Source of the DNA: Actinomycetes bacterium
GTDB taxonomy: Bacteria; Actinomycetota; Humimicrobiia; Humimicrobiales; Humimicrobiaceae
Direction: 5' to 3'
Assembly (NCBI GenBank): GCA_022396035.1
Contig: JAIOXO010000012.1
Coordinates: forward strand, 1-51,675
DNA length: 51,675 nt
Position 1 is the stretch's first letter; every line of letters begins with the position of its first letter. Both the position numbers and the translations under genes were made by a program. Below are positions 11,736 to 50,240 of this stretch, piece after piece. Under the pieces are notes generated by a model that saw nothing but the letters and a program-made list of their open reading frames with translations, did not search any database and was not told where the DNA came from.

Positions 11736-11812
<77 letters not shown>

Positions 11813-49207: not shown

Positions 49208-49549
49208 ATGAAGCTGGTCAGGCAGGGGGACGGCAAGGTTATTTCAAAAAATGTTGTTTTAGCCGGTTCATGGTTTAAGAAAACTTTTGGCCTGCTGGTT
49301 GGTCCGGCTCTGGTTGGTGATGAATGTTTGATGATTACCGGCTGCAGGAGCATTCATACCCTGGGGATGAGCTATAGTATAGATGCGGTGTTTATAGATA
49401 CCCAGGGCAGGATAGTAAAGATATACAGAGGGCTTAAGCCCTGCCGGGTTACAGGGTTTGTATCAGGGGCAGAGGCGGTTATTGAGTTTAAGGCAGGTGT
49501 GGCCGGCAGTAAGCAATTGGCCAGTAACCAGGTTTTAAATATTCAATAA
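49208..49549 (+). CDS. DUF192 protein
   Basis: 113 residues with the DUF192 signature CRSIHTLGMSYSIDAVFID near residue 47 and PCRVTGFVSGAEAVIEFKAG toward the end. In this family no enzymatic function is established. It has no signal peptide, starting right after the DtxR stop with no gap, so it is co-expressed with it. Confidence 0.85.
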   Translation: MKLVRQGDGKVISKNVVLAGSWFKKTFGLLVGPALVGDECLMITGCRSIHTLGMSYSIDAVFIDTQGRIVKIYRGLKPCRVTGFVSGAEAVIEFKAGVAGSKQLASNQVLNIQ

Positions 49550-49553
49550 AAAA

Positions 49554-49599
49554 TGTCAATAAAAGGTAATTGACACCCTATAATAGTGTGTGTTAATAT
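49554..49599 (+). promoter_or_regulatory. Inverted repeat and promoter ahead of rplU
   Basis: TGTCAAT (49554-49560), 8 bp, ATTGACA (49569-49575) is a perfect inverted repeat. Its right arm contains the consensus -35 TTGACA (49570-49575), followed after 18 bp by TAATAT (49594-49599). A protein bound to the repeat would block or assist this promoter. It could also be a short transcript hairpin. Confidence 0.45.
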
Positions 49600-49622
49600 T
49601 TCAGTCTGTGATTTAAGCTTTT

Positions 49623-49958
49623 ATGAATACTAAGGAGGCCAAAATTTACGCTATAATTACCAGTGGCGGTAAACAATATAAGATAGAAGAGAACCAGGAT
49701 ATAGTGGTTGACTATATACAGGGCAAAGAAGGCGACAAGATAAGTATTAAGGATGTCAACCTGATTTCCGATGGAAAAAAGGTGCAGGTGGGTAATCCTT
49801 TAGTCAGTAGCGCGCAGGTGGAAGCAACCATTAAAGAACACATAAGGGCAGATAAAGTAATTGCTTTCAAGATGAAGGCCAAGAAGAGATATAAGAGAAA
49901 GATTGGTCATAGGCAATCGCTTACCGTGATTCATACTGAGAAGATAAAAGTTAAGTAA
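49623..49958 (+). CDS. rplU: 50S ribosomal protein bL21
   Basis: bL21 binds 23S rRNA in the large subunit. It contains [21 protein letters not shown] at the start and [18 protein letters not shown] near the C-terminus, both typical. From the listed ATG it has 111 residues, with a seven-residue N-terminal extension before the usual start position (MYAII in most bacteria). A perfect ribosome binding site lies inside that extension, 5 bp before an ATT codon, so translation may really start at 49644 with AUU. rpmA follows after 13 bp. Confidence 0.95.
49631..49638 (+). promoter_or_regulatory. Ribosome binding site pointing to an AUU start for rplU
   Basis: TAAGGAGG lies 5 bases before ATT at 49644-49646, the codon at the family's normal first position. 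The upstream ATG at 49623 has no ribosome binding site. The feature decides between a canonical but unsupported start and a rare AUU start. Confidence 0.55.
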
Positions 49959-49971
49959 TTGAGGTGATTTT

Positions 49972-50211
49972 ATGTCTACCAAAAAAGGTGTTGGCAGCAG
50001 CAGGAATGGGAGAGACAGTAATCCTAAATTTTTAGGGATAAAAAGTTCCAGCGGCCAGTTTGTTAAAGCTGGAAGCATCATAGTGAGGCAAAGGGGGACC
50101 AAGTTTAAGCCGGGCAGAAATGTTGGGCTGGGCAGGGACTATACCCTGTTTGCCAAAGCAGACGGAACGGTAGAGTTCTCCAACAAAAAGGTTATAAATA
50201 TTGTATCTTAA
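49972..50211 (+). CDS. rpmA: 50S ribosomal protein bL27
   Basis: bL27 sits near the peptidyl-transferase centre. The N-terminus [19 protein letters not shown] is nearly identical to the family, and the rest ([35 protein letters not shown]) is standard. There is no cleavable leader of the Firmicutes/Staphylococcus type. GAGGTGA precedes the ATG. A strong terminator follows directly; the obg gene usually next is absent. Confidence 0.97.
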
Positions 50212-50216
50212 CCCAT

Positions 50217-50240
50217 AAGGCCCCCTACGGGGCCTTTTTT
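50217..50240 (+). terminator. Rho-independent terminator of rplU-rpmA
   Basis: AAGGCCCC, loop CTAC, GGGGCC followed by TTTTTT: a 6-bp GC stem extendable to 8 with A-T pairs, and a T-run, 5 bp after the rpmA stop. Confidence 0.92.

Follow-up and report, generated by a model that had tools for sequence, protein, structure and literature searches.

The rplU gene of this Actinomycetes bacterium, encoding ribosomal protein bL21, is well supported by sequence comparison as starting at an AUU codon, and we consider it probable (roughly 0.65) that this is an IF3-discriminated start, offset by a strong Shine-Dalgarno (SD) sequence, which ties bL21 synthesis to IF3 and initiation fidelity. The gene lies in a window of 51,675 nt (the whole stretch of DNA analysed) from a draft genome of 40 contigs and 98% completeness (G000). 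Coordinates of the features discussed are collected in Table 1.

In the window, the SD sequence TAAGGAGG is followed by five bases, CCAAA, and then by ATT; the next codons, TAC GCT ATA ATT, encode YAII. The ATT occupies the position of the Met in other bL21 proteins, and the matches to TIGR00061 (NCBIfam) and PF00829 (Pfam) begin at residue 9 of the frame extended to an upstream ATG, just past the ATT. An SD 5 nt ahead of ATT, and the alignment of ATT with the usual first residue of bL21, had been put forward in an earlier note on this DNA, and both are exact in the sequence.

Table 1. Features at the rplU locus and other genes considered (columns: feature, position, strand, remarks; positions refer to the window unless preceded by G000 and a contig handle)
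rplU (ribosomal protein bL21, 104 aa)	49644..49958	+	TIGR00061 E=1.6e-28; PF00829 E=1e-30
Shine-Dalgarno of rplU, TAAGGAGG	49631..49638	+	
AUU start codon of rplU	49644..49646	+	codon-level conservation
In-frame ATG seven codons upstream of ATT	49623..49625	+	rejected as rplU start
Promoter-like element (TTGACA, 18 nt, TAATAT, TG before second hexamer)	49570..49599	+	10/12 matches
rpmA (bL27)	49972..50211	+	ATG start; same-operon control; TIGR00062 E=1.3e-32
Terminator-like hairpin and T tail after rplU-rpmA	50217..50236	+	
Initiator-type tRNA-Met(CAU)	11736..11812	+	normal CGGG-CTCATAA-CCCG anticodon arm, GGG/CCC type
rsmD (16S m2G966 methyltransferase)	G000 C2 17285-17836	+	TIGR00095
ruvB	G000 C2 90829-91857	+	AUU/AUA/AUC starts after AAGGAGG
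infB (IF2)	G000 C2 near 45409	+	ATT start
etfB	G000 C4 36318	+	ATT at Met position, GTG three codons upstream; ambiguous
Sugar epimerase	G000 C11 50426	+	candidate ATA start, seen in G000
nadE	G000 C5 34911	-	candidate ATA/ATT start, seen in G000

The 5' ends of rplU were aligned across 32 genomes from 13 genera of the same family (f1), whose members are uncultured; the relatives found by contig search are Actinomycetota metagenome assemblies, some of them from sediment. The start codon is ATT in 31 genomes and ATA in one, with neither ATG nor GTG at this position in any of the 32. An SD is kept in all 32, with a match length of 5-8 nt and a spacing of 5-7 nt from the GGAGG register to the start. 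Recurring in 32 of 32 relatives, this arrangement is, on the aligned sequences, far from chance, and the AUU start that the note had proposed is strongly supported.

The conservation extends to the codon itself. Across the family, the internal Ile positions of rplU are coded by ATA 159 times, by ATT 132 times and by ATC 30 times. Were codon 1 a plain Ile codon, the chance of ATT in 12 or more of 13 genera would be about 2e-4, an approximate value computed as if genera were independent. Among 30 other conserved, degenerately coded columns of rplU, codon 2 alone is codon-invariant (TAC, 31/31). Judged by these counts, codon 1 of rplU is under selection as a codon, beyond synonymous use. The AUU start is also selective: in the ribosomal protein neighbours of rplU and infC taken as controls, the family start is ATG in 30/30 genomes for rpmA, 30/30 for rpmI and 16/16 for rplT (76/76 in total). 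As a separate observation, the bases TACGC after the rplU start (window 49647-49651, including the TAC of codon 2) are nearly invariant across several phyla, and they are kept although the low-GC family prefers TAT for Tyr elsewhere in rplU (TAT 74 versus TAC 24).

Beyond the family, rplU also starts with ATT in 4/4 genomes of family f3 of the same class, whereas family f2, also of this class, uses an ATG three codons upstream, showing that the AUU is dispensable. In a tree of IF3 plus bL21, f3 falls outside f1 and f2, so either AUU dates from the class ancestor and was lost in f2, or it had two origins. Outside the class the position holds ATG or GTG, except in two families with CTG after a strong SD: f7 (5/5 genomes, from 4 genera) and f55 (2/2 genomes). 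A pattern search of 397 genomes of the phylum found CTG at the rplU start in exactly these seven genomes, and the pattern NUH-Tyr-Ala...GGKQY, searched in the same phylum sample, occurred in 24 genomes, all of them in the family. On this sequence distribution, rplU is a gene that has acquired starts outside ATG/GTG/TTG at least twice, independently.

Upstream of rplU, the promoter-like element carries little weight by itself (2 such sites found versus 1.9 expected by chance); a TTGACA...TTAATAT...CTGTGATT-like block also precedes rplU in genera g1, g3, g5, g7 and g12. The promoter-like element and the hairpin past rpmA suggest that rplU and rpmA probably form one transcription unit, and the predicted leader ahead of the ATT is about 40 nt. 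A structured leader of the L21 leader type was considered as the basis of the AUU and rejected: the Rfam covariance-model search gave sub-threshold chance matches only, none of them in 49500-49650 upstream of the rplU start, and no consistent fold was found around the start. Autogenous control through leader RNA, as represented by the Rfam L21 leader, thus resembles the present case in acting on a ribosomal protein operon at translation initiation and differs from it in both the Rfam match and the fold.

A general relaxation of start codon use was rejected as the main explanation. In a survey covering 1.51 of 1.60 Mb of G000 and 1424 predicted genes, ATT followed strong SDs in 7 of the genes lacking an SD-supported canonical start, against 5.9 expected; ATA in the same gene set showed a mild excess (14 found, 8.5 expected). 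Comparison of 252 orthologue pairs between G000 and G026, from a second genus, gave aligned canonical starts in 227, and of the remaining 25 only rplU and infC looked non-canonical in both genomes. Both analyses show canonical starts to predominate, with few exceptions. The initiation machinery, too, looks normal in G000, and an altered initiator tRNA or anti-SD was rejected as the cause of the AUU. No altered anticodon was seen in the initiator-type tRNA-Met, the 16S 3' end has the usual sequence GGATCACCTCCTTT, and IF3 is ordinary, matching Thermus and E. coli IF3 over its full length.

The genes that share this class of start include two with a role in translation initiation. infC, encoding IF3, has in this family no canonical start linked to an SD; in most examined families of the phylum it starts with AUC, AUA or AUU. 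rsmD has AUU, AUC or AUA at the exact Met position in 29/29 family genomes, never ATG, behind a conserved SD of the GGTGAT type, and in 27 of the 29 a canonical codon is absent back to the upstream stop; outside the family, rsmD starts with ATG in f3 and TTG in f2. Other cases are less uniform. The infB start is ATT within g1 and g5 and ATG in most of the remaining family genera. ruvB begins with AUH in around half the family, other genera having ATG, and larE was ambiguous in the survey. The apparent AUH starts of ruvB, nadE and the epimerase indicate that such starts are not confined to translation genes.

Several further candidates were discarded: prfB (G000 C1 about 168690, minus strand), seemingly start-less, contains the well-known CTTTGA site for programmed +1 frameshifting, which G026 has too; pfkA has a TTG available; and in an rpoD-like gene and folD a GTG overlaps the SD. 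The infC of genus g7 is unusual in another way. At start distance after AGGAGGTG, the frame offers AAU/AAA, UUU/UUC and AAC/AAU/GAA and neither AUH nor NUG, leaving an apparent UUU/UUC start or no recognisable start; a terminator-like hairpin and T run, resembling an attenuator, lie directly upstream.

IF3 destabilizes 30S complexes on, and represses, starts other than AUG, GUG and UUG (PMC5472188). On the rplU mRNA, ordinary fMet-tRNA would read the AUU with the first two bases paired and the third mismatched, and the destabilization by IF3 would make this an intrinsically poor start, offset by the strong, well-spaced SD. A shortage of IF3 compared with 30S subunits, or a loss of P-site fidelity, would be expected to raise bL21 output, as for infC. 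The strict conservation of AUU suggests that the poor start has been retained as a means of control, and the argument is made firmer by the IF3-discriminated starts of infC and rsmD in the family and by the CUG starts of rplU in two other families. It is striking that rsmD belongs to this codon class, since G966 is stacked against C34 of initiator tRNA and the fidelity of initiation is affected by methylation of this base, as stated in PMC7949028 where it cites Burakovsky 2012 and Arora 2013. rplU, infC and rsmD may make up a small group of translation genes reading out initiation fidelity, two of which would also set it.

The closest precedent is infC, whose AUU is under autocontrol by IF3 and which has an ATC start in Streptomyces (PMC5472188). 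Like rplU, it is a widely conserved translation gene with an IF3-discriminated AUH start and a strong, extended SD, and the case recurs in this family. By this analogy, bL21 is probably under start-codon control of the same kind as IF3 itself, with the difference that the rplU product is a 50S protein, so that control by IF3 would form no direct feedback loop. Streptomyces sigR, with a GTC start for which repression by IF3 was shown experimentally (PMC5472188), parallels rplU in being an Actinomycetota gene with a lineage-conserved non-canonical start, an extended SD and misannotation to an upstream canonical codon. It differs in encoding a sigma factor, in using GTC rather than ATT, and in having experimental proof where rplU is known from sequence. 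With extended SDs, an AUU or AUA start in S. aureus yields about 10% of what AUG does (PMC13009471). The AUU of S. aureus cvfC1 and E. coli pcnB and the AUA of S. aureus ccpN lower initiation, as would that of rplU, and the S. aureus genes share its strong SD, although none of the three encodes a ribosomal protein.

From these parallels we infer that rplU is IF3-sensitive in this organism and that its start serves regulation. The AUU is most plausibly conserved for control through IF3 and initiation fidelity; the main rival is a fixed weak start, and drift is a minor one. A fixed weak start would mean that the AUU is real but merely sets a constant low rate, for instance to balance bL21 against bL27 or to offset a strong SD or promoter, with no conditional control by IF3. 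This reading is unlikely overall but deserves weight: S. aureus cvfC1, with its AUU, showed no effect of media (PMC13009471), and E. coli pcnB is described as simply limited by its weak AUU in a work cited as reference 73 of PMC13009471. There is also no clear physiological reason why bL21 should be linked to IF3 and its neighbour bL27 should not, which counts against IF3 control. However, a weaker SD or a UUG would suffice to fix a low rate, yet the SD is strong and the AUU almost invariant, and infC and rsmD fall in the same codon class.

Nearly neutral drift of rplU to AUU, in a lineage tolerant of AUH starts and with the SD compensating, is improbable. The scattered apparent AUH starts of G000 (ruvB, nadE, epimerase), the infB starts of g1 and g5, and the mixture of AUH and ATG that ruvB shows within the family are what such tolerance would produce. 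rplU itself behaves otherwise: ATG is one mutation away but was regained in 0/36 genomes of f1 and f3, and the gene was altered again, with CUG, in other families. The absence of ATT enrichment at strong SDs and the uniform ATG of the control ribosomal protein genes likewise argue against drift.

A start at the upstream ATG, giving an N-terminal extension of bL21, is the choice of a standard gene caller and lies in an open frame in G000 and in its nearest relative, G002, but is very improbable. The earlier note had held this ATG to be without a ribosome binding site, which is borne out: it is preceded by TTTAAGCTTTT, with no SD-like stretch. The minus-seven ATG is common to G000 and G002 only, and no upstream extension is conserved in the family. 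In 21 of the 32 family genomes the stretch from the preceding in-frame stop to the ATT holds no ATG, GTG or TTG at all, and where other genomes have canonical codons there, these are without a fitting SD or conservation. The upstream ATGs of genus g7 are in frame in some species and out of frame or interrupted by a stop in others, and this difference between species excludes them as the general rplU start. Misreading of an ATG as ATT in a draft assembly is refuted by the same codon in 35 genomes from two families and independent assemblies.

To our knowledge, no ribosomal protein gene with a conserved AUU start has been known, and none was found in the open-access papers searched. Gene callers limited to ATG, GTG and TTG misplace or drop the starts of rplU, infC, rsmD and ruvB throughout the family. 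If IF3 controls these genes, initiation fidelity would be a sensed variable acting on more genes than infC, and comparative genomics could test how far the IF3-controlled gene set extends, a point left open by PMC5472188. We tentatively suggest, as a possibility that we do not yet favor, an initiation-fidelity regulon of infC, rsmD and rplU, with infB in one clade, all translated from starts that IF3 rejects. In such a regulon, loss of fidelity would itself raise the fidelity factors together with a 50S protein, and rplU would be a recurrent target, through AUU here and through CUG in two other families.
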